A DNA stretch of 64,000 nt from Vulcanimicrobiota bacterium (GCA_003168375.1 PMSI01000001.1:186001-250000); one strand, 5' to 3'; counted from the stretch's first letter, positions 5,379 to 37,552 are shown. Numbers and translations are program-made. The notes: generated by a model from the sequence alone, not told the origin.

Positions 5379-6605
5379 ATGGAGGCACCGGGCGCCGAAC
5401 GACGACCATCGATGCGATCCCCCGACGTCTCGGGCGGCCAGAGCCGGCCCGGCGAATCCGCGCTCCAGGCGACCGCTCGCGGCCGGGAGCTGGCCCGCGC
5501 CGGCCGGCTCGACGAGGCGCTCGCGGCGTTCCTCGGCGCGGTCGCGCGCGACGACCGGATCCTGGACGCGCACCTGGGGATCTACGAGGTCGCGCAGATC
5601 CTCCGCCGCCCCGAGCTCGCCCTCGAGCACCAGGCGGCGGCGATCGCGCTCGCCCCTGTCCAGTCGACCCGGGCCGGCGAGCATGAGGACTACGCGCTCC
5701 TGGTTCCGTGCGTCGCCGGGCCCTACACGGCGAACACGCCGGTCGACCTGCTCTTCGATGCGGCGCGGGTGACGCTGCACCGCTGGTACGTCGATCCGAC
5801 CGGCCCGATCCCGCCGCTTCCGCCGCACGATGCGGTGTTCGTCGCGATCGGGGAGTCGGACGAGGCGGCACCGCACCTCGCCGCGATGGAGCGCTTCGCC
5901 GCCCGTAGCAGCCGCCCGGTACTGAATCGTCCCGAGCTGATCCGCCGTCTGGGGCGCGTCCCGCTCGCCGAGACGTTCACGGGCGCCGAATACTGCCGGG
6001 TCGTCGCCACCAGCCGCCTCGACCGGGCGCGCTATGCCGCGGATGGGTTCCCGGTCCCGCACATCGTGCGGCCGGTCGGCTCGCACGGCGGGCACGGGTT
6101 GACCCGTATCGACGACGACGCGCAGCGTGCAGCCTATCTCGACGCGGTCGACGCGCCCGAGCTATTCGTCGCGCCCTTCATCGACTACAGCGGCGCCGAC
6201 GGCTTCTTTCGCAAGTACCGCATCGTCTTCATCGACGGCGAACCGTTCCCGTTCCACTTGGCGATCTCACCGCGCTGGATGGTTCACTACTACAACGCGC
6301 CGATGGCCGAGCACCGCTGGATGCGCGACGAGGAACACGCCTTTCTCGCGCGGATGGACGAAGTGTTCGCGGGCGAGCTGCGCGACGCGCTGCGCGAAAC
6401 CGCGCGACTGCTCCCGCTCGACTACGTCGGGATCGACTGCGCGATCGACCGCGAGGGGAAGCTGTTGATCTTCGAAGCCGACAACGCGCTCATCATCCAC
6501 CTCCTCGACGATCCGGAGCTCTTCGGCTACAAACACGCCTACGTCCCGCGCATCCTGACGGCGCTCGACGCCCACGTGCGCCGGACCATTCGTGGTGCGG
6601 CGTGA
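5379..6605 (+). CDS. TPR-containing ATP-grasp family protein
   Basis: About 408 residues. The N-terminal part (about residues 25-95) forms two helical repeats of TPR type (ARAGRLDEALAAFLGAVARD). The remainder is ATP-grasp-like: a region reading PHIVRPVGSHGGHGLTRI near residue 230, a segment FIDGEPFPFHLAISPRW, and a C-terminal VGIDCAIDREGKLLIFEADN, which supplies the Asp/Glu/Asn metal ligands expected of the fold. ATP-grasp enzymes ligate a carboxylate to an amine or thiol through an acyl phosphate; the substrate here is unknown. The stop overlaps the GTG start of the following PLP decarboxylase, so the two are probably co-translated and may act on related substrates. A shorter start at 5412 is possible. 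Confidence 0.8.
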   Translation: MEAPGAERRPSMRSPDVSGGQSRPGESALQATARGRELARAGRLDEALAAFLGAVARDDRILDAHLGIYEVAQILRRPELALEHQAAAIALAPVQSTRAGEHEDYALLVPCVAGPYTANTPVDLLFDAARVTLHRWYVDPTGPIPPLPPHDAVFVAIGESDEAAPHLAAMERFAARSSRPVLNRPELIRRLGRVPLAETFTGAEYCRVVATSRLDRARYAADGFPVPHIVRPVGSHGGHGLTRIDDDAQRAAYLDAVDAPELFVAPFIDYSGADGFFRKYRIVFIDGEPFPFHLAISPRWMVHYYNAPMAEHRWMRDEEHAFLARMDEVFAGELRDALRETARLLPLDYVGIDCAIDREGKLLIFEADNALIIHLLDDPELFGYKHAYVPRILTALDAHVRRTIRGAA

Positions 6606-8917: not shown

Positions 8918-10195
8918 ATGAGAGGCGACGTTTCGCCGGCGTTCCGGCGCGTGCTGGCGCACGAACTGCCTCGCTGGCGGGCCGACGGCGTGATCGACGA
9001 GGCGGCGTCGCAGGCCCTGGTTCGCCGATACGAGCTCGACCGGATCGCCGAGGCGCAGCGCGGTTGGGCCACGTGGGCGTTCGCGATTCTCGGCGCGGTC
9101 GCGATCGGCGCCGGAATCCTCAGCTTCGTCGCCGCGAACTGGGCCGCGATCGACTCCGCCGCGCGCTTTGGGATCGTCTTCGCGGCGACGATCGTCGCCT
9201 ACGGCGCCGCGTTCGCGCTACGCGCCCGCGGTCGGCATGCGCTCGCCGAAGCTGCATTCGTCGCCGCGGCGCTCGGTTTCGGCGGCTCGATCGCCCTCGG
9301 CGCGCAGCAGTTCAATTTCTCGCTGAGCGCGTGGCTCGTCTACGCGATCTGGGCCGCGGGGCTCGTTCCGCTCGCGCTGGTGCTGCGCAGCCTTCCGGTC
9401 GCGACCGTCGCGCTGGCCGCCGGGGCGATCTCGCTGCCGATGCACCAGTACGAGAACGCACGCGCGGGCACGCTGCTCCTCACGCATCTCGCCGTCTTCG
9501 CGGTCCTCGCAATGCTGCTGAGCCGGCGGCTCGGTGTCCTGTGGTTCCGAGAGCTCGCGGTCGCCGTGATCGCGTCAGGGGTGATCGTCGCGATCGGGGG
9601 GGGGTGGCCATCGATCCTCTCGACCACGGGCGCGATCGGCCTCGTGGCGGCGCTGGTGATCGCGGCCGGCCTGGCCCGCTCGCAGGCGCTTCGCGTGATC
9701 GGCATCGGCGCTGCGCTCCTGCTCGCCGCGCCGTCGACGTTCTGGTTTATGTATTCGGGGGGGGCAACGTTCCGCGCCGACGGCGGGCCGCTCGAAGCGG
9801 TCGCGACGGCGCTGCTCGCCGCGGCGGCTGGCGCGGTCTTCTTCGTCCACGGCCGGTCTGTCGTCCGGTTTCTGCCTGCCGGCATCGCGTTAGCACTGGC
9901 GATTCTGCTGCCGCACTTCGGATTGCCACCGCTTTCCGGCGTCGTGATCGCGAACGCGCTGATCTTGGTGCCGGCCGTCATGCTGATCATGCGCGGCGGC
10001 GCGCTTCGCGACCGCACCCCATTTCTGTGCGGTACCGCCGTCTGCGCGCTCGACGGCTTCTTGCAGTTCGCGGAGTACGACCACAACCTGGGGGCCAAAG
10101 CCGTGGCGTTCATCGTGGTCGGGATCGCGTTCGTCGGCGCGGCGCTGGTGTTCGAGCGCCGGCAGCCCACTGCGGAGCCGGCGCATGCGGCGTGA
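8918..10195 (+). CDS. DUF2157 domain-containing integral membrane protein
   Basis: The first 65 residues are soluble and match the DUF2157 start (LAHELPRWRADGVIDEAASQ style: a short helical domain ending with a Trp-rich turn). About ten hydrophobic membrane segments follow, beginning with FAILGAVAIGAGILSFVAAN. The family is of unknown function. It overlaps by 11 bp the next gene, a GDYXXLXY-type protein, which is its usual partner in other bacteria, so they probably form one complex in the envelope. No enzymatic motif was seen. Confidence 0.85.
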   Translation: MRGDVSPAFRRVLAHELPRWRADGVIDEAASQALVRRYELDRIAEAQRGWATWAFAILGAVAIGAGILSFVAANWAAIDSAARFGIVFAATIVAYGAAFALRARGRHALAEAAFVAAALGFGGSIALGAQQFNFSLSAWLVYAIWAAGLVPLALVLRSLPVATVALAAGAISLPMHQYENARAGTLLLTHLAVFAVLAMLLSRRLGVLWFRELAVAVIASGVIVAIGGGWPSILSTTGAIGLVAALVIAAGLARSQALRVIGIGAALLLAAPSTFWFMYSGGATFRADGGPLEAVATALLAAAAGAVFFVHGRSVVRFLPAGIALALAILLPHFGLPPLSGVVIANALILVPAVMLIMRGGALRDRTPFLCGTAVCALDGFLQFAEYDHNLGAKAVAFIVVGIAFVGAALVFERRQPTAEPAHAA

Positions 10196-28980: not shown

Positions 28981-30336
28981 GTGAGCGCGATCGACGCGCT
29001 CGAGTACCGTGACGCCGGCGCGGCGCTGCGGCGGCTCGCGACGCCCAACGCGTTGGCCCTGATGACCGATCAGCTGCTGGGGATCGTCGACACGATCGCG
29101 ATCGGCGCGCTCGGCACCGCGGCGCTGGCGGGGATCACCGGCGCCGTCGGCGTCTTCATGGTGTTCGGGATCGGGCTGTTCGCGTTCTCCAGTGGGATCC
29201 GAATCGTCGGCGCTCAGGCGATCGGCGCCGGTCAGAGCGAGCGCTTCGGCGCGATCGTCCGCGCGGCGACCGTCGTGCCTCTGATCATCGCCGCGGTCAC
29301 TGCGCTCGCATCCCTCGCCGGAGCACGCCCGCTGCTCCACGCGATCCTGCCGGCCGGAGCGCCGCTCGACGCCTCGGCGCACTATCTGATGCTGCGCTGC
29401 GCGTGTCTGCTGCCGATGGTGTGCAGCGGCATGCTGGCGGTCGCCTTCGCGACCGCCGGCGATGCGAAGCCGACGCTGCGGCTGCTGCTCGTGATCAACG
29501 CGGTGCACGTGCCGCTCGTGTTCGTCCTCGCGCTCGGTGCGCTGACGAACCATCCGTTCGGGATGACCGGTGCGGGGGTTTCCTCACTGATCGCGGAGAT
29601 GGTGGGGCTGGCGTACATCGTGCGCGAGGCGCGGTTGCGGCCGGAACTCGGAATCTTCTCCTCGCGCTCGATCGACCGCCGCCTGGTGCGGCTGACCGCC
29701 TCGGTCAGCTGGCCGGAGTTCGTCTTCCTCGTGCTGCAGATGGCGCCCGATCCGGTGATCGTGGCCATGCTGGCGCCGTCCGGGACGCAGCCGGTCGCCG
29801 CGTTCCGGGCGCTCTCGCTCGTCAGCGACATCACGTGGTCGCTCCCGGGCGCGCTCGGGGAAGCCTCGGAGATCGTGCTCGGCCAGCGCATCGGCGCCCG
29901 CGACTACGACGGCGCGAAGGTGTTCCAGCGCTCTGCGACGCGAATCGCCGTGCTGCTGTGCCTGGGTGTTGGCGCACTCGTGGCAGTCTTGGCGTGGCCG
30001 CTCGCGGCGATCTGCACGCTCAGTCCCGCGCTCGCGACGCTCGCCGCCGCGCCGCTCGCGGTCCATGTCGGCGTGACGCTGCCGCTGAAGGGCTACGCGA
30101 TGACGGTGCTGGCGCCGATCCGCGGCGCCGGCGACACCCGCTTCGTGATGGTGATGGGGATCGTGACCACGGCGGTCGCCCTGGCGGGGATCGTCGTCGG
30201 CGTGCGCGTGCTGCACCTTGGGCTCTGGTCCGTTCCCTTCGGCTGGATCGCCGGCTGGCTGGCGCGCAGCGTGGTGACGACAGCGCGCCTCAACAGCGGA
30301 GATTGGCAGCGCCGCCGGCTCGCACTGGTGCAGTAA
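28981..30336 (+). CDS. MATE-family multidrug/metabolite efflux transporter
   Basis: A 451-residue protein with about twelve membrane helices in two halves. Family features include ALMTDQLLGIVDTIAIGALG near residue 25 (the first-helix motif with the Asp in the middle) and the repeat-like LPLKGYAMTVLAPIRGAGDT near 365. Uses a sodium or proton gradient to export cationic or peptide-like compounds. It ends at the first half of the regulon operator, and directly precedes the radical SAM cluster, so it could serve as that cluster's exporter, though it has no operator of its own. Confidence 0.9.
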   Translation: MSAIDALEYRDAGAALRRLATPNALALMTDQLLGIVDTIAIGALGTAALAGITGAVGVFMVFGIGLFAFSSGIRIVGAQAIGAGQSERFGAIVRAATVVPLIIAAVTALASLAGARPLLHAILPAGAPLDASAHYLMLRCACLLPMVCSGMLAVAFATAGDAKPTLRLLLVINAVHVPLVFVLALGALTNHPFGMTGAGVSSLIAEMVGLAYIVREARLRPELGIFSSRSIDRRLVRLTASVSWPEFVFLVLQMAPDPVIVAMLAPSGTQPVAAFRALSLVSDITWSLPGALGEASEIVLGQRIGARDYDGAKVFQRSATRIAVLLCLGVGALVAVLAWPLAAICTLSPALATLAAAPLAVHVGVTLPLKGYAMTVLAPIRGAGDTRFVMVMGIVTTAVALAGIVVGVRVLHLGLWSVPFGWIAGWLARSVVTTARLNSGDWQRRRLALVQ

Positions 30337-30364
30337 CCGCCTTGTAACTGCGGTGTCCGATACT
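30333..30364 (+). promoter_or_regulatory. Regulon operator/promoter 1: GTAAC-N6-GTAAC plus -10
   Basis: GTAAC at 30333-30337 and 30344-30348 form a direct repeat of 11-bp period. Ten bases later GATACT (30359-30364) fits a -10. The same repeat and spacing occur upstream of the genes at 35275 and 37021. SARP and PhoB-type winged-helix activators bind such repeats in place of a -35. Confidence 0.7.
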
Positions 30365-30390
30365 GATCGTGTCCCAGGGGGATGGATACG

Positions 30391-30693
30391 ATGCTCGATG
30401 AGATTCCGACAACGCTCACCTATCCGGCCGGCACTTCCCGCGCGGCCGGAACCGTGACCGATCTAACGACGCGCCGCCGCCGCGACGACGTCCTGAGCAC
30501 GATCACGCTCGTCTTCGACGGTATTCACTTCGGCACGTTTTCGATCTCGGCACCGTACACGAGAGGCAAGCCCATCATGCTCTACCTCGTTCGTCAGGCC
30601 GAAGACTCGGGCGGTGAGGATATTGCCGGCCCGATCGACTGCCTCCTGACCGACGACGCGACCCTTTCCGCGGACCTGGACGTCGCCCGGTAA
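30391..30693 (+). CDS. Small protein of unknown function, first gene of radical SAM operon
   Basis: About 100 residues starting MLDEIPTTLTYPAGTSRAAG, without signal peptide. The middle is beta-like (STITLVFDGIHFGTFSISA) and the end acidic (CLLTDDATLSADLDV), with one cysteine. An ATG at 30382 is also possible but touches the AGGGGG ribosome site, so 30391 is preferred. It is six bases before the radical SAM gene and directly behind regulon operator 1. It could be a substrate or a leader-binding accessory; I see no known domain. Confidence 0.65.
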   Translation: MLDEIPTTLTYPAGTSRAAGTVTDLTTRRRRDDVLSTITLVFDGIHFGTFSISAPYTRGKPIMLYLVRQAEDSGGEDIAGPIDCLLTDDATLSADLDVAR

Positions 30694-30699
30694 GATACG

Positions 30700-31719
30700 G
30701 TGTTCGTCCATCCGCGAGTGCTTTCACTCCTCACGACGCGACGCTGCACCGCTGCTTGCGATCATTGCTGCATCGGGGCGAGTCCGAAATCGACTGGTTC
30801 CATACCGGTCCCGCGTATGCACGCGCTGATCGACGAGGCGAAACGCATTCCCTCCTTCGAACGCATCGTCTTTAGCGGCGGGGAGTGCTTCCTGCTCGGA
30901 GCCGACCTCGACATGCTGGTCGCGCATGCGCACCGCGCCGGCTTCGCGACGCGGGCGATCAGCAACGGGTACTGGGCTATACACGACCGCGCGGCTCGTG
31001 AACGCATGCGGTCGCTGCGCGCGGCGGGCCTGGACGAGATCATGCTCTCGACCGGCACGTTCCATCAACGATTCGTGTCCCCGACACGAATCGTCAACGC
31101 TGCGCGTGCGGCGGCCTCGGCCGGGATATCGGTGCGCGTCTCCGTCGAGGTATGCGATCAGTCCACGTACGACGCCGCGAGCCTCATCGACGATCTGGCG
31201 GACCTCGTCGCGACGGGCTCGGTGTGCGTAGCGCAAGATCCATGGATCGCCGATGCGGGCGGCCGCGGCTCGACAACCTTGACCCACGACCGCGTACCGG
31301 CGGAACAACAGGCATCGGCGAACGGGCGCTGCGCCCAGATTTTCACGATCGTCACCGTGACTCCGGATCAAATCCTGACCGCGTGCTGCGGGTTTCCGAC
31401 CGAAGAGTTGCCGTCACTCCGTATCGGATCGATTGAAAACCGGGCGCTCGACGACGTCCTTCGCGATGCGCCGAACGAACTGTTCAAAATGTGGCTGCAC
31501 GTCTCGGGTCCGGCCGAGATCGCCGGTTTTGTGGCGCGCTACGTCCCCGGTTACAAGCTGCCGCCGGCAGCGTCCATCTGTCAAGTATGTGTCGCGCTTC
31601 AGCGCGATTCGACCGCGATGAACGTCGTCGCCGAGCACGGCGGCGACGTCGTGCAGGAGATCACAGCCGCGTTCGTTCGGCTTCAAACTCATCACTCGTC
31701 GACCGCATTTTTGCGCTAG
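30700..31719 (+). CDS. Radical SAM protein with C-terminal cysteine cluster
   Basis: 339 residues. The N-terminal radical SAM motif is RRCTAACDHCC (Cys16, Cys20, Cys23), and IVFSGGECFLLGADL near residue 50 provides the Gly-Gly-Glu SAM-binding strand. The C-terminal part has further cysteines: NGRCAQ near 208, TACCGF near 227, and SICQVC near 293, a pattern like the SPASM/twitch domain of peptide-modifying enzymes that hold auxiliary Fe-S clusters. Enzymes of this type form thioether, C-C or other crosslinks in peptides. The neighbours are small proteins and a C39-like peptidase, consistent with peptide modification. Start is GTG. Confidence 0.85.
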   Translation: MFVHPRVLSLLTTRRCTAACDHCCIGASPKSTGSIPVPRMHALIDEAKRIPSFERIVFSGGECFLLGADLDMLVAHAHRAGFATRAISNGYWAIHDRAARERMRSLRAAGLDEIMLSTGTFHQRFVSPTRIVNAARAAASAGISVRVSVEVCDQSTYDAASLIDDLADLVATGSVCVAQDPWIADAGGRGSTTLTHDRVPAEQQASANGRCAQIFTIVTVTPDQILTACCGFPTEELPSLRIGSIENRALDDVLRDAPNELFKMWLHVSGPAEIAGFVARYVPGYKLPPAASICQVCVALQRDSTAMNVVAEHGGDVVQEITAAFVRLQTHHSSTAFLR

Positions 31720-31728
31720 GAGAATCGC

Positions 31729-32304
31729 ATGGCAAAGCAACTGCCGCTCAACGTCACCCTCGATACGATAGCCCTCAAAGGTTTCGGCGTCGATCAAACC
31801 AGCACCGGCCAGTCGATCACGTACTACGACGGGGGACCGCTCTACTGTCATGCCGACCCCGATGGGCAGGGGGGAATCACGATCACCGTCGATGAGAACG
31901 CTCCGAGCTCGTTCACGCAGACGAGCGGCCCGGTCAAGACCGTGATCGTCCAGTACCGGGCGGGCGTCGCCGGCCAAACGCAGACGATCACCTGGAACAC
32001 GGTCGCCGCCGGTGCGGTGTACGACCCGGCGAACCCTCTCGAACATCATCTCGTCATGACGAACGATCTGAAGCACGCGACACTTCAGATAACGAAGCCG
32101 GCGAGAGGTCTCTCGACCGCCAACACGCTCGGATTGGTCGTGGTCGGCAGCCAGATCACGGGAAACCTGCCCGAGGGCTATTTCGTGCGCATCCCGATGA
32201 ACATGAACCCGGCGGTCGATCCTACGGAATTCTCTGCGATCAGCATCGCATGGGGAGGCGCGGGCGGCATGGCGGGCCCGATCGGCGGCGGGAGCATTCC
32301 CTGA
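31729..32304 (+). CDS. Unknown 191-residue protein with Gly-rich C-terminus
   Basis: Starts with a strong ribosome site (AGGAG seven bases before ATG) directly after the radical SAM gene. No signal peptide. Residues 1-150 look beta-rich (GGITITVDENAPSSFTQTSG, VIVQYRAGVAGQTQTITWN), and the last 18 residues form a Gly-rich tail, AWGGAGGMAGPIGGGSIP. That tail could be a substrate segment for the enzyme or a flexible linker; this is inference. It contains one cysteine only. No family recognised. Confidence 0.7.
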   Translation: MAKQLPLNVTLDTIALKGFGVDQTSTGQSITYYDGGPLYCHADPDGQGGITITVDENAPSSFTQTSGPVKTVIVQYRAGVAGQTQTITWNTVAAGAVYDPANPLEHHLVMTNDLKHATLQITKPARGLSTANTLGLVVVGSQITGNLPEGYFVRIPMNMNPAVDPTEFSAISIAWGGAGGMAGPIGGGSIP

Positions 32305-32316
32305 GCGGCGGTCGAG

Positions 32317-35145
32317 TCAGGCAGGGACGCGCGCTAGCGCTGCGAGCTGGGCGGACGGCGTCGCGTCCAGCTCGTCCGCGAGCGCGACGGCGTAGCGCTG
32401 AAATTCTCTCCGGGCCGCATCCAGCTCTCCGCGAGAGATCCGCGCGCGAATCACCACCTCACACGCGCTCTCGTTCAACGAATCGACGTCCGCAACAGCT
32501 CCGGCGTAGATCAGCGCATCGTCAAATCGCTCGGCACTCAAAGCGTCGTGCGCCAGCGTCAAGGCTGCCGAGCAGACGACGTCGTTGATCCGCGCGACGG
32601 GCGCCTGCATCCATCCGAAACGTTCGTACCGCCCCGGAGCGCCCGTGCGGTACGACGTCACGATCGCTCGCAGGGCGTCCCGCGCGGCGTCGTCGAGCGG
32701 CTCGTTCGAGCGCCTTCGAACGAGCGCCTCGGCTCGCCGCAGATCGACGTCGATCGCCGGCGCAAGGCGATACCCCGCGCCATCGGTCAACATCACCGCG
32801 TCGCGCACTCCGAGCTTCGAACGGAGCCGGGAGAGCGTCACCTTGATGTTGTTGGGCCACTCTTCGGGATCGATATGACTCCACAGCGCTTCGCCGACGC
32901 GATCGCGCGAGAGCACGAGCCGGCTCGACGCGAGGAGCGCCATCAGCTCGAACTCCTTGTCCGTGAGCTTCACGACCTGGCCGTCCTTCGTCACCCGGCC
33001 GCCGATCAGCTCGACGACGAGCCGGGGATCGTGTCTCGCGCGATCCCGCAAGAGCCGCCGCTGGATGAAGGTCTCGAGAATGCCGGCCGGTTTGCCCTGC
33101 AGTAAGCGGGCGACGGCATCGCTCAATTCGGGGCTCTCGATCGGCGCGATGAGCGTGCGCAGCATCGACTCTTCTGCTTCGCGCGCTGCAACGTCGAGCA
33201 CGTAGATCGCCGTGTGCGCGAAGATCTGGACGTAAGGATCGCGCCGCTCGTCGGCGGCGCGGGCGGCTGCTCGGGCGGCCTCGAGCGCGTCGCGCTGCTC
33301 CGTCGCTTCCCCGATGCGATACAGGTGCGCGATCGCGGCGACGACCGGCCACGCGTAGTTCGCGTCGAACTGCGGCGCCCGGCCCCGCGCAGCATCGATC
33401 ATCGGCGCGAAGCCGCGCTCGATTCCCGGGGTGAGCCGATCTTCGAGCACGCCGAGGTACCGTTCGAACCTCAGGTCGTCACCGGCGAGCCACGCGACGA
33501 GGGCACCGTTCGTCGCCGCATAGGACAGGTACAGGGGAAGCTCCTCGCGGGACAATCTTCGGACGAGTTCGTCGAACATCAGCAGCGCCCGCTCATGCTG
33601 ACCGCGGAACGCCGCCTCGTGCGCGTCGATGTAGTGCAGCGTTTGGTTTTCACCGAAGACGAAGTCCGGGGGGTCGATGCGGACCGCCTCATCCGCAAGC
33701 GCGCGAGCGGTGCTGAAACGTCCTTCCATTCCGCGCAGCGTTGCAGCGAACGTGAGGAGCGTTGCCCGTGCCGAGGTCGGTTCGCGGGCGAAACCACGCA
33801 GCGCGGTCTCCAACAGGTCCTCGCTCTCCGCGTGACGACCTGCGTTGGTGTATGCCGAGCCCAGGTGGATCAGGACGACCGCGCGCTGATCGGGGTTCGC
33901 AGTCCTGGGCAAGCAATAGTAGACGGTCTCGGCTTCACGTACGTAGGTCGCCCGATCGACCGAGAACGCGCGGTATGGGATCGTCGCGAGCCAAACGTTC
34001 GGATATTGCGTGACCAGATCCCGATCGAGGCGATCGAGCACGCGCTCGTACTCGCCGAGTGGGACTCGCGAAGCCGTATACGGTGGCGCAGCGTCGATGA
34101 TCGCCGCGGCACGCTTCACGTCGCCGTGATCGATTGCCAGGCTTGCAGCCTTGACGTACGCGCCGTCTCCGCTGAGCACGTGCAGCGTTCGTTCGTACAG
34201 CGCCGACGTAAGCGATTGAAACCGCTCCCGTAGCAGCCTGACCACTTCAGGGTGAACGGTAGCGTGCTCGAGCTGCAGCTCGATGAACGGCAGCGACGTC
34301 AGCTGCGTGAAAAGCCAGTCGTCCGCCACGTCACCGAGCACCCGGATCAGGTCCGTCTGCGACGCACCGCGCAACACCGCGCAGACCACGAGCGCCTCTC
34401 GAAGATCGCCGCCCAACCGCGCGATCGTCCGATGCACCGCGAACGCCAGGAGCGCGTGAAACGGGAGGTCCGCGGCCTCGCCGAGATTCCCGGGGCCGTC
34501 CATGCCGGCAAGACGAGCGAGGAGCTGGGTGACCAGCGGCCATCCGCGAGCGACCTCGAAGAGCGCCCCGGCCGCCTGGCGATCGAGGCCGGCATCGATC
34601 GCGATCGCTTCGGTCTCCTCCCGGCTCAGCGCGAGATCCGCAGCGGCGATCGCGGCGAACCGCTCGCGCTCCACCAATTGTGCCAGCGCCGGCGGTAGCG
34701 GCGCCCGGCTCACGATGGCGAGCGTACGAGAGACGGGCAGGCTCGCGATCAGCTCGCCGGCCAGATCCACCCCGGCCGGGGTAGCGAGCACACCACCGAT
34801 ATCGCGCAGTCCGAAGACCGAGCGTTCTGCTTCGAGCGGCCACACGCGGCGCAGCACCTCACGCGTAGTCGCTGGCACCAGCTCGCGCGGCTGCGCCAGA
34901 CGGCCCGCGGCCGACCGAGCCGCAAGGGGCCGATCGTCCGCGACGAGCGCGTCGAGAATCGGGCGAGACAGATCGCCGGCCTCGCCGGCCTGATGCAGAT
35001 CGCACGTGACCAAGGTTCCGGCGTGGAGCGCGAAGGCACGCAGGAGCGCGTTCTTCCGATAGCCCGGGGGGCCGGACACCGTCAGGACGCGGGGCGCCTT
35101 CTCGGCAATCGATGCCACGAAATCTCGATCAACCGGATCGATCAT
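32317..35145 (-). CDS. Large NTPase regulator with C-terminal winged helix and BTAD domain (SARP-like)
   Basis: About 942 residues. The P-loop region near residues 25-32 reads GPPGYRKN, a degenerate Walker A with Tyr-Arg where Gly-Gly/Ile-Gly is usual. A long helical TPR-like middle part follows (HLGSAYTNAGRHAESEDLLE). Near 712-790 lies an OmpR/PhoB-type winged helix (VVKLTDKEFELMALLASSR, NNIKVTLSRLRSKLGV), followed by a bacterial transcriptional activator domain to the end. In classic SARPs the DNA-binding part is N-terminal; here the order is reversed, as in some MalT-like activators. It sits inside the cluster it probably controls. I start at ATG 35145; the longer frame overlaps the divergent gene. 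Confidence 0.85.
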   Translation of the reverse strand: MIDPVDRDFVASIAEKAPRVLTVSGPPGYRKNALLRAFALHAGTLVTCDLHQAGEAGDLSRPILDALVADDRPLAARSAAGRLAQPRELVPATTREVLRRVWPLEAERSVFGLRDIGGVLATPAGVDLAGELIASLPVSRTLAIVSRAPLPPALAQLVERERFAAIAAADLALSREETEAIAIDAGLDRQAAGALFEVARGWPLVTQLLARLAGMDGPGNLGEAADLPFHALLAFAVHRTIARLGGDLREALVVCAVLRGASQTDLIRVLGDVADDWLFTQLTSLPFIELQLEHATVHPEVVRLLRERFQSLTSALYERTLHVLSGDGAYVKAASLAIDHGDVKRAAAIIDAAPPYTASRVPLGEYERVLDRLDRDLVTQYPNVWLATIPYRAFSVDRATYVREAETVYYCLPRTANPDQRAVVLIHLGSAYTNAGRHAESEDLLETALRGFAREPTSARATLLTFAATLRGMEGRFSTARALADEAVRIDPPDFVFGENQTLHYIDAHEAAFRGQHERALLMFDELVRRLSREELPLYLSYAATNGALVAWLAGDDLRFERYLGVLEDRLTPGIERGFAPMIDAARGRAPQFDANYAWPVVAAIAHLYRIGEATEQRDALEAARAAARAADERRDPYVQIFAHTAIYVLDVAAREAEESMLRTLIAPIESPELSDAVARLLQGKPAGILETFIQRRLLRDRARHDPRLVVELIGGRVTKDGQVVKLTDKEFELMALLASSRLVLSRDRVGEALWSHIDPEEWPNNIKVTLSRLRSKLGVRDAVMLTDGAGYRLAPAIDVDLRRAEALVRRRSNEPLDDAARDALRAIVTSYRTGAPGRYERFGWMQAPVARINDVVCSAALTLAHDALSAERFDDALIYAGAVADVDSLNESACEVVIRARISRGELDAARREFQRYAVALADELDATPSAQLAALARVPA

Positions 35146-35236
35146 CCTCGAGTCACCACACCACAAGAAGCGAGCGCCCGCGCTGTTGAGTACGACGGCG
35201 CGAGCGCGATCACTGCTCTGCGGCCTCCCGGTCCGC

Positions 35237-35268
35237 GTAACCTGCCCGTAACGCCTAGCGCGCACCAT
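35237..35268 (+). promoter_or_regulatory. Regulon operator/promoter 2: GTAAC-N6-GTAAC plus -10
   Basis: GTAAC at 35237-35241 and 35248-35252, then ten bases, then CACCAT at 35263-35268 as a weak -10 (A at 2, T at 6). The ATG at 35275 would lie at about +1, so the transcript may be leaderless. The site is also in the regulator's own upstream region and could autoregulate. Confidence 0.65.
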
Positions 35269-35274
35269 CCCACC

Positions 35275-35892
35275 ATGGGACAGACGTGCACGCTGCTGCT
35301 CCACATCGACGCGGAGGGAGTCGCGGAACTCGCCGCGACCGGATCGCGGGTCGTCGTGGCCAAGCCCGCCGGCAGTGCGCCCCCCAACGTTGCCTGGCTC
35401 GCGATTGAGCCACGGACCCGCATCTCGATTGCTTGGGAGGAGCTCTACGGCGTCTTCGCATCCAATACGGCCGTCCGCAGTGACTCGACGATCGCCGTCG
35501 CCAGCCGAGTGCATCCGGCTACCGAACGCAGGATCTACACGTACGACGGCCTCCGATTCGCCGATGCGCGAACGGAGGCGCGCATCCCGCCCGGTCATTA
35601 CGACGTCTGGAACGCCGGGCCGGCCGCTGCGACGTTCGGCCTGCTCCAGGCAGCGAGCGTGGACGGGACGGTGCTTCAGTCGCCCTTGAACGCGGTCGTC
35701 TTACCCGCGGACTTCACGGCCGATTTTACGCCCGATACGCGTGTCTATGTTTGGACGCAACGGGGCGCCGAAACGGGCGCCATCATCGGCGAGGTTCCGC
35801 GGCACGCCGCGGTGCTGGCGTTTGGCGGCCAGCACCGCTCGAGATCGTACCGATACGACGGCAGCGGCGCGGTCTTCGTTCCCGGGCCCTAG
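35275..35892 (+). CDS. Unknown 205-residue protein of the radical SAM cluster
   Basis: Begins MGQTCTLLLHIDAEGVAELA and appears beta-rich throughout, with repeated short strands (RVVVAKPAGSAPPNVAWLAI, DTRVYVWTQRGAETGAII). No signal peptide, one cysteine. It is transcribed divergently from the SARP-like regulator and preceded by operator 2, so it belongs to the same regulon as the radical SAM operon and the C39-like gene. The upstream in-frame extension to 34993 is antisense to the regulator. No known family was recognised. Confidence 0.65.
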   Translation: MGQTCTLLLHIDAEGVAELAATGSRVVVAKPAGSAPPNVAWLAIEPRTRISIAWEELYGVFASNTAVRSDSTIAVASRVHPATERRIYTYDGLRFADARTEARIPPGHYDVWNAGPAAATFGLLQAASVDGTVLQSPLNAVVLPADFTADFTPDTRVYVWTQRGAETGAIIGEVPRHAAVLAFGGQHRSRSYRYDGSGAVFVPGP

Positions 35893-35908
35893 CCGACGAC
35901 CGCGCGCT

Positions 35909-37021
35909 TCAGAGCGGCGTGGGGCGGAAGTCCTCCCCCAACCTGCGGTATTGCACGCTCCCGCCCAGTCCGACGATTTGTTGAAACGGCTCGAAGGGCG
36001 ATCGCGTCTCCCGACACGGTCGCCAGACCAGTTCCGGCGCGACGGAACCGTCCCGCAGCAGCAAGGCTTCGTCGGAACCGGAGATACTCAGGTCGTCGAT
36101 GTCGCCCGGTTTGACAGCCGATGCGCCCATGAAGACTCCGTGGACGGCGTCGATACGCGCCACGCCGACGGCAACGCCGTTCCGCAGCAACGGTACCAGA
36201 TAGTAGTGCCAGTCGAGCACATCGATTCTGCGCACGAGCAGCGGTACGCCGGGGACCACGCCCGAGAGCGCCGCGCTCAGCGGTCCACGCGTATCGATCC
36301 CATGGCTCGCGACGGCCCCCACCGCCTGTGTCGCCGCTGTGTCGGGATCGATCAAACCGTTGGACCTGCCCAGGAGGATAGGGACAGGCGGGACCGTCGG
36401 CGGCCGGAGTGCGACCTGCGTCCGGGCGCTGCTGCAGACGGTGACGAATACTTGGCGCTTCGAGTCGGCGTAGCCGGTGAAGAAGTCGCTCGTCCAGCCG
36501 GCGTAGCTGACGTACTGATCCGCTTCGAGCCTGCCGTGGGCCGCATCGCTTCCGCATTGGTCTGCGGCCTGGTGATCGCTCGGCGCATCGGGCGGCGTGA
36601 CCGACGGACTGTTGATGTAGAAGCCCAGCAGCGCGGCGCCATCGGTGCCATCCCCCGGCGGCGCAAGGTTCACATCGGTAACGACGACCCAGTGGCCGCT
36701 GCCGAAAACCAGCGCGGCGGGCGGTGGAGCATTCGGCGATTGGACGACTTGCACGATCGTCGTCGATCCCTCTTCCGCTGAAGACGACGAGACTACGGAA
36801 AACGTGTTGCGTAGGGGAAGCGGCGCAAGAGTGTTCAGGCCGAGCGCGAGGCCGTCCGGAGTCGTGCTCCAGACGTCGACGTTCTGATCGAGAATCGTGT
36901 GGAGATCGTCCTGCTGGACGGCCTGTCCTCCGATCGACCGCAAGATCATCATCGCGGTGGCGGGACCGCAGTATTTTGGGGTGTTCTGCTGATGATACTC
37001 GACGTTGCGAACGGACTGCAT
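35909..37021 (-). CDS. C39-like cysteine peptidase domain protein
   Basis: About 370 residues. The N-terminus has the papain-like C39 pattern: nucleophile Cys18 in YHQQNTPKYCGPATAMMILR (Gln upstream as oxyanion residue), histidine in FGSGHWVVVTDV near residue 111, and Asn in YINSPSVT near 136. No ABC-transporter domain or membrane segment is attached, unlike bacteriocin exporters. The C-terminal 200 residues are beta-like and unassigned. Start is the ATG at 37021, with GAGGAG five to ten bases upstream, rather than the GTG at 37033. Operator 3 lies upstream in the matching orientation. Confidence 0.75.
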   Translation of the reverse strand: MQSVRNVEYHQQNTPKYCGPATAMMILRSIGGQAVQQDDLHTILDQNVDVWSTTPDGLALGLNTLAPLPLRNTFSVVSSSSAEEGSTTIVQVVQSPNAPPPAALVFGSGHWVVVTDVNLAPPGDGTDGAALLGFYINSPSVTPPDAPSDHQAADQCGSDAAHGRLEADQYVSYAGWTSDFFTGYADSKRQVFVTVCSSARTQVALRPPTVPPVPILLGRSNGLIDPDTAATQAVGAVASHGIDTRGPLSAALSGVVPGVPLLVRRIDVLDWHYYLVPLLRNGVAVGVARIDAVHGVFMGASAVKPGDIDDLSISGSDEALLLRDGSVAPELVWRPCRETRSPFEPFQQIVGLGGSVQYRRLGEDFRPTPL

Positions 37022-37063
37022 ATCGCTCCTCACCGGTGTTCCCCGCGGGATCCCTACACGCTG

Positions 37064-37095
37064 AGCCTACTTGCGGAGAGTTACAGGCGGGTTAC
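37064..37095 (-). promoter_or_regulatory. Regulon operator/promoter 3: GTAAC-N6-GTAAC plus -10 (minus strand)
   Basis: Read on the minus strand, GTAAC at 37095-37091 and 37084-37080 repeat at 11 bp, and after ten bases TAGGCT (37069-37064) forms a -10. The direction is toward the C39-like gene, the third transcription unit with this arrangement. Confidence 0.7.
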
Positions 37096-37192: not shown

Positions 37193-37552
37193 ATGCGCGT
37201 CCCGCCACTCGTCGTCTCGGCGTTGCTCGTTGCGTCCGCGAGCATCACGCTCGCCCCAAGCGCATTCGCATCCCGCGAGGCCGTCGTCTATCTCACCGTC
37301 GCAGGGTTCACACCGCACTCGGCCACGATTGCCGTCGGTGACCGCGTTCGCTTCACCGTGCGGGACCACAAGGCGCATCAGCTCGCGAAGACGAGCGGCC
37401 CGAATTCGGGCGCCGTCGCGCCGAACGTCCTCGAGGGGCAAGGGAACAGCGTGACGCTGTCACCGGACGAGGTGGGCGCGTATACCTACGTCGACCGCTT
37501 GAATCCGCGCAAGCCCGAATTCCGGCTCACGGTCCGCGCGCTACGACACTGA
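37193..37552 (+). CDS. Exported cupredoxin-like protein without the cysteine ligand
   Basis: 119 residues with a signal peptide (VVSALLVASASITLAPSAFA) and a strong GGAGGG ribosome site. The mature domain resembles a small cupredoxin (FTPHSATIAVGDRVRFTVRD), with histidines in DHKAHQL near residue 61, but the C-terminal Cys-His-Met loop of blue copper proteins is replaced by YVDRLNPRKPEF. It may therefore bind copper differently or not at all. It diverges from the C39-like gene and has no GTAAC repeat in its own direction. Confidence 0.7.
   Translation: MRVPPLVVSALLVASASITLAPSAFASREAVVYLTVAGFTPHSATIAVGDRVRFTVRDHKAHQLAKTSGPNSGAVAPNVLEGQGNSVTLSPDEVGAYTYVDRLNPRKPEFRLTVRALRH

Follow-up and report, generated by a model that had tools for sequence, protein, structure and literature searches.

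Gene set under GTAAC operators

The 64,000-nucleotide stretch analysed here (PMSI01000001.1:186001-250000, assembly GCA_003168375.1 of a Vulcanimicrobiota bacterium; hereafter the window) contains genes for a radical SAM enzyme, a C39-like cysteine peptidase, a putative regulator and the small proteins p103, p191 and p205, together with three copies of a GTAAC-N6-GTAAC operator that each precede a -10-like hexamer. The features, in window coordinates, are:

30333 to 30364, plus strand: operator-promoter 1, GTAAC-cgcctt-GTAAC-N10-GATACT, sharing bases with the stop codon of the MATE gene upstream
30382 to 30693, plus strand: p103, 103 amino acids, opening the radical SAM operon and otherwise seen only at the orthologous loci of genomes G007 and G008
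30700 to 31719, plus strand: radical SAM enzyme, YydG/EpeE-like, 339 amino acids, with CxxxCxxC at residues 16-23 and further cysteines C211, C229, C230, C294 and C297
31729 to 32304, plus strand: p191, 191 amino acids, candidate precursor with the C-terminal tail GGAGG-MA-GPIG-GGSIP
32317 to 35145, minus strand: regulator, about 942 amino acids, with ATPase-like and TPR regions at the N-terminus and, at the C-terminus, the SARP module of OmpR-type winged helix and BTAD
35237 to 35268, plus strand: operator-promoter 2, GTAAC-ctgccc-GTAAC-N10-CACCAT, between the regulator and p205
35275 to 35892, plus strand: p205, 205 amino acids, of no known family, its start codon 6 nucleotides after the -10
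35909 to 37021, minus strand: C39-like (papain-like) cysteine peptidase, 370 amino acids, with Q11, C18 and H110-W111 conserved and a C-terminal extension
37064 to 37095, minus strand: operator-promoter 3, GTAAC-ccgcct-GTAAC-N10-TAGGCT, upstream of the C39-like peptidase gene

An initial annotation of this DNA had placed the repeats at 30333, 35237 and 37095 (minus strand), and all three were found to be exact in position and orientation, with the hexamer lying exactly 10 bp 3' of each site and carrying A at position 2 and T at position 6. The proteins it listed were likewise present, save that its '100-aa' product is 103 residues long. Allowing up to one mismatch, the window held 5 matches to GTAAC-N6-GTAAC against a shuffle mean of 0.56, and none of 100 shuffles reached 5. 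Exact repeats numbered nine in the 4.43 Mb own genome (G000) and one for the reversed control; four of these nine had the A/T hexamer at the correct distance, namely the three in the window and one on another contig (C6:906620). The other five were discounted as plain repeats, having no hexamer at the right spacing and beginning GTAACG or GTAACA. Behind the C6 operator lie genes for a papain-like peptidase (Pfam C70, above cut-off), a 193-residue protein and a putative secreted protein; homology of the C39-like family to this peptidase or to its 193-residue neighbour was not supported by hhalign.

In p205 (G000 and G008) and in the radical SAM gene of G005, the -10-like hexamer ended only 6-7 nucleotides 5' of the start codon (window 35263-35277; locus L049, about 5690-5732, minus strand; locus L054, about 8978-9020), and these transcripts are probably leaderless.

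Distribution of the genes and operators

Radical SAM orthologues (57-61% identity), p191, the C39-like family and the close regulator were found together in the same six genomes (G000, G001, G003, G005, G007 and G008; the carriers), as a co-occurrence check suggested by the initial annotation had asked, and the carrier contigs are labelled Candidatus Eremiobacterota. The p191 family was confined to these six among 148 genomes searched, p205 was present in five of them (G000, G003, G005, G007 and G008) and also, as a tandem pair, in G059, and the C39-like family extended to a strong match in G021 and weak matches in G012 and G053. A tree of 49 relatives placed the six carriers in one clade (support 100/99), with distant enzymes scattered over many phyla.

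The full operator pattern (GTAACC-N5-GTAAC-N11-A-N3-T) was searched for in 99 genomes of the bacterial family, with the reversed pattern as control, giving 16 matches and none for the control. Thirteen of the matches lay in the six carriers, compared to 3 in the 93 non-carriers, where one was in G004 of the same genus and two were in 88 genomes of other genera. The gene before the G004 site matches the gene before the C6 site of G000, and a search for the peptidase on the G004 contig bearing the operator gave no match. With 4 occurrences in the own genome, the element followed by its -10 is not scattered. Eight of the 13 carrier operators stand at loci of the system and 5 are unlinked; unlinked operators, such as the fourth one of the own genome on contig C6, show that the regulon is not entirely self-contained, as had been proposed, while the co-occurrence of the genes supports the other part of that proposal, that they constitute one system.

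Exact operators were found at the radical SAM operons of G005, G007 and G008, and degenerate ones in the same register at those of G001 (GTCAC-N6-TTAAC-N10-AAAGAT) and G003 (GTTAC-N6-TTTAC-N10-GAGACT). The p205 operator is exact in G007 and has one mismatch in G008, and at the G008 peptidase gene the half-sites are exact with the -10-like TATCGT shifted one base further. For comparison, 0.65% of random 150-bp window stretches reached two or fewer mismatches to the operator, and 1.2% three or fewer.

The arrangement in G005 bears most directly on whether these genes belong together. There, the radical SAM, p191 and C39 genes form an operon that has an operator to itself and is approximately 112 kb away from the regulator and p205. 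Beside the regulator, in the position taken by the radical SAM gene in G001 and G003, an exact operator is present without a gene. Linkage is therefore separated from regulation in this genome, and we regard this split locus, on the sequence evidence, as the best single argument for one system. Taken with the distribution above, it makes a single regulon highly probable.

Tandem genes in another part of the own genome (G000:C7:105530-109022) encode two putative secreted proteins, one of them CAP-domain-like, and adjoin another SARP-type paralogue. They bear GTAAC-N6-GTAAC of another subtype, without the -10 at +10, which suggests related operators for related regulators.

A SARP-type regulator with a C-terminal DNA-binding module

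The OmpR-type winged helix and BTAD reported by the initial annotation both scored above their Pfam cut-offs (Trans_reg_C, 37.1 bits; BTAD, 34.3 bits). This module, together with ATPase and TPR parts, is shared with the SARP and SARP-LAL regulators such as AfsR and PimR, in which it is N-terminal, whereas here it is C-terminal, occupying residues 723-939 of 943. SARP promoters contain direct repeats with an 11-bp period, the 3' repeat lying 8 bp from the -10 (PMC10936776), and SARP-LAL regulators recognise heptamers in a 7 + 4 bp arrangement (PMC5930380). The sites described here have the same geometry, as GTAAC plus two bases followed by 8 bp gives their N10 spacing; the target motif, GTAAC(C), differs, and the host lies outside the Actinomycetota. 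The regulator is thus a putative SARP-type activator of these promoters, for which binding and activation are inferred from domain content and operator geometry.

Compared within the genus, close orthologues of the regulator (49-62% identity) were present only in the six carriers; in the segment of the recognition helix they read NN-x-KVT, unlike most paralogues. Other regulators of the same architecture (approximately 25-30% identity) occur in every genome of the genus. MtrA was considered as a binder of GTAAC repeats, and a literature search found no paper on this.

An EpeE-like radical SAM enzyme

The 'SPASM-like' cysteines of the initial annotation can be described more closely, as the enzyme most resembled EpeE/YydG (PDB profile, E=9e-26 over 296 aligned positions). 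CxxxCxxC, C211, C229, C230, C294 and C297 were invariant in 8 of 8 close sequences, and the C229-C230 pair aligned with positions 247-248 of the chain in the EpeE structure, which would correspond to Cys222-Cys223 assuming 25 extra N-terminal residues in the chain. EpeE Cys223 is the hydrogen donor (PMC8326336). Consequently the enzyme is predicted from this alignment to act like EpeE, with C230 as the Cys223 equivalent.

A role in viperin-type defence was considered and PADLOC gave just weak matches to the radical SAM core; a PHROG search, made with phage origin in mind, was without meaningful matches.

Several further loci encode related enzymes. G008 has a second radical SAM protein (G008:C68, locus L050, 6032-11851; 51% identical), accompanied by a regulator of this type (40%), a small protein upstream that ends PIGPMLNIDITPQP and a Vps62-like protein of 415 residues downstream; no GTAAC operator was found in the upstream stretch checked. 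A relative in G025 (contig C6, loci L055 and L083; 41%) has SARP-type regulators and a caspase-like protein (Peptidase C14) beside it, so that a different cysteine peptidase occupies the position of C39. Upstream of related enzymes in Thermogemmatispora, Ferruginibacter and Verrucomicrobia (L080, L082, L084, L085 and L087), proteins of 137-238 residues are encoded whose Val/Ala/Asn-rich hydrophobic C-termini are like epimerase cores.

p191 and the C39-like peptidase

Relatives of p191 were only 17-41% identical to the window protein, and their most conserved stretch was the C-terminal GG-MA-GPIG region, with a mean pairwise identity of 0.60 compared to 0.22 overall. The motif GP[IVM]G was present in 7 of 7 tails, 4-14 residues from the end and 2-3 residues after a glycine. 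An AlphaFold model (mean predicted local distance difference test score, pLDDT, of 53, which is weak) was beta-rich, with an end of very low confidence. No family in Pfam or NCBIfam matched p191, and a fold search with the low-confidence model gave no significant match. In G005 the radical SAM, p191 and C39-like genes abut, so that there is no room for another precursor, and contig C14 of the same genome carries a second p191-C39 pair that has a near-operator to itself and shares the tail (GGVYGPMGFAVS). p191 is accordingly a likely, though by no means certain, substrate of the enzyme, judged from gene order and tail conservation.

Homology between p191 and p103 was not supported by hhalign, and the idea that GPxG marks the wider radical SAM family in general was rejected, most distant neighbours being without it. 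In G131 the gene for a distant, YydG-like radical SAM protein is immediately preceded by a putative open reading frame of 203 residues with AIGPDIK heptad repeats (C18, locus L056, 10367-10978, minus strand).

Peptidases of family C39 have catalytic Gln, Cys, His and Asp/Asn residues and cleave after a double glycine; Q11, C18 and H110 are the conserved ones here. The peptidase gene most likely starts at the ATG at 37021, and the C-terminal half of its product, which belongs to no known family, is possibly PepSY-like, to go by a low-confidence model; fold searching with that model gave nothing significant, with YpmB (PepSY) and phytochelatin synthase as weak leads only. Putative secreted proteins follow peptidase genes in four loci (G000 C6, G001, G003 and G005 C14), two of them weakly alike.

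Proposed pathway and alternatives

We propose that these genes specify a SARP-activated pathway of Candidatus Eremiobacterota resembling those for ribosomally synthesised and post-translationally modified peptides (RiPPs), with p191 as precursor, an epimerase-like radical SAM enzyme and a stand-alone C39-like peptidase, and we give this reading a probability of about 0.52. The activator would bind side by side, as a pair, at the two GTAAC half-sites adjoining a weak -10 and recruit RNA polymerase to the radical SAM operon, p205 and the peptidase gene. p191 would comprise a folded, beta-rich leader of approximately 180 residues and a flexible tail that bears a double-glycine-like site and GP[IVM]G. 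From this tail the YydG/EpeE-like enzyme would take an alpha hydrogen, probably at the I/V/M residue, and C230 would give hydrogen back from the other face to leave a D-residue. The C39-like peptidase would then cleave after glycine to free a peptide of roughly 10-18 residues, and export of the product, or some action together with it, may fall to the secreted proteins encoded next to peptidase genes at related loci. Peptide modification and processing, the function first suggested for this locus, is what we too infer. Confidence differs between the steps: epimerisation of the p191 tail is an evenly balanced proposition, and the release of a peptide falls slightly short of that.

In its working, the proposed pathway appears closest to the epipeptide system epeXEPAB (yydFGHIJ), to which it would add switching by a SARP and a substrate whose large leader recalls proteusins. 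Both sets combine a precursor (here a candidate), a radical SAM enzyme with further conserved cysteines and the hydrogen donor or its equivalent, and a protease, and the epimerised Val/Ile of epipeptides is comparable to the I/V/M of the p191 tail. They differ in that the epipeptide precursor has 49 residues whereas the p191 proteins have 174-220, and in that the Epe protease and ABC exporter have as counterparts here a soluble C39-like peptidase and no exporter, with a SARP regulator in addition. Proteusins (polytheonamide, landornamide and pythonamide) have a large folded leader and a short, modified C-terminal part, as read here for p191, and a radical SAM epimerase; pythonamide comes from Candidatus Eudoremicrobium, itself of the Eremiobacterota (PMC9259500). 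Their nitrile-hydratase-like leader was not found in p191 by the Pfam and NCBIfam searches, and their epimerase is PoyD-type, whereas the enzyme here is EpeE-like. That the system represents a new RiPP class, defined by a precursor of 174-220 residues whose last 10-18 (GP[IVM]G after a glycine site) would be epimerised by an EpeE-like enzyme and released by a C39-like peptidase under a dedicated SARP with a C-terminal DNA-binding module, is put forward tentatively.

Several observations count against the proposed pathway. The radical SAM enzyme scored 78.7 bits (E=5e-22) against NCBIfam TIGR04078 (YydG), for which the cut-off is 300, and therefore falls outside that family. The peptidase matched Peptidase_C39_2 at 21.7 bits (E=3e-4), below the Pfam cut-off of 24, and its usual third catalytic residue (Asp/Asn) is not conserved. 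Canonical GG precedes GPxG in 5 of 7 p191 tails, the others having AG and NG; the proteins are unusually large for precursors, with a weak structural model; there is no dedicated exporter in the gene set; and no recognisable operator was found among the promoters examined at p205 of G003 and G005 or at the peptidase genes of G001 and G007.

Some of these points would be accommodated by a regulon from which no peptide is released, in which the enzyme modifies folded p191 and/or p103 in place, a tail exposed at the C-terminus being one example of a target, and other small beta-rich proteins, p205 for one, are matured or degraded by the C39-like protein. The size and predicted beta-rich character of p191 and the missing exporter are consistent with this, as are GP[IM] motifs outside any GG site in p103 of G000 and the small protein of L050, and the presence in the set of a number of small proteins without a known fold and of a tail-collar protein in G005. 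The tail motif, however, stands near the end of p191, after Gly in all seven cases and in a region predicted to be unstructured, and p191 adjoins the C39-like peptidase in two separate loci of G005, such that we hold modification in place to be unlikely. Less likely again is a different reaction, either a cross-link or one on a non-peptide substrate, with the GPxG tail serving only as a docking or anchoring signal: overall identity to EpeE is low and the wider enzyme family has dissimilar neighbours across many phyla, but the EpeE cysteines seen in the alignment, hydrogen donor included, were invariant in all eight sequences, and no Cys that could form a thioether bond is present in the p191 tails. 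Least likely of the three is that the operators are real but bound by another regulator (a SARP paralogue or an OmpR-type response regulator), leaving the local one with other targets, since the confinement of close regulator orthologues to carriers, their distinct recognition segment and the far denser operators there outweigh the ubiquity of the architecture in the genus, the exact site retained in G004 and the general use of 11-bp direct repeats by OmpR-type regulators.

If the proposed pathway is correct, SARP-type control of gene clusters extends beyond the Actinomycetota, and a class of peptide that combines a large leader with a stand-alone protease is added to the EpeE-like enzymes, a group found across many phyla. 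The host group consists of soil bacteria known almost only from their DNA, hardly any members of their phylum being in culture, and sequence here provides predictions of which regulator binds which DNA, which genes group together, and which substrate is altered and where.

Neighbouring genes

Divergent from the peptidase gene, the window encodes a small secreted cupredoxin-like protein (37194-37552), its similarity just below the Pfam cut-off. The tail-collar protein of G005 (Pfam Collar, above cut-off; L054, 11866-12487) is encoded after the C39-like gene under a one-mismatch operator. The tandem p205-like genes of G059 (contig C26, locus L189, 7458-9711), in another genus of the family, adjoin a gene for a trypsin-like protease (below cut-off).

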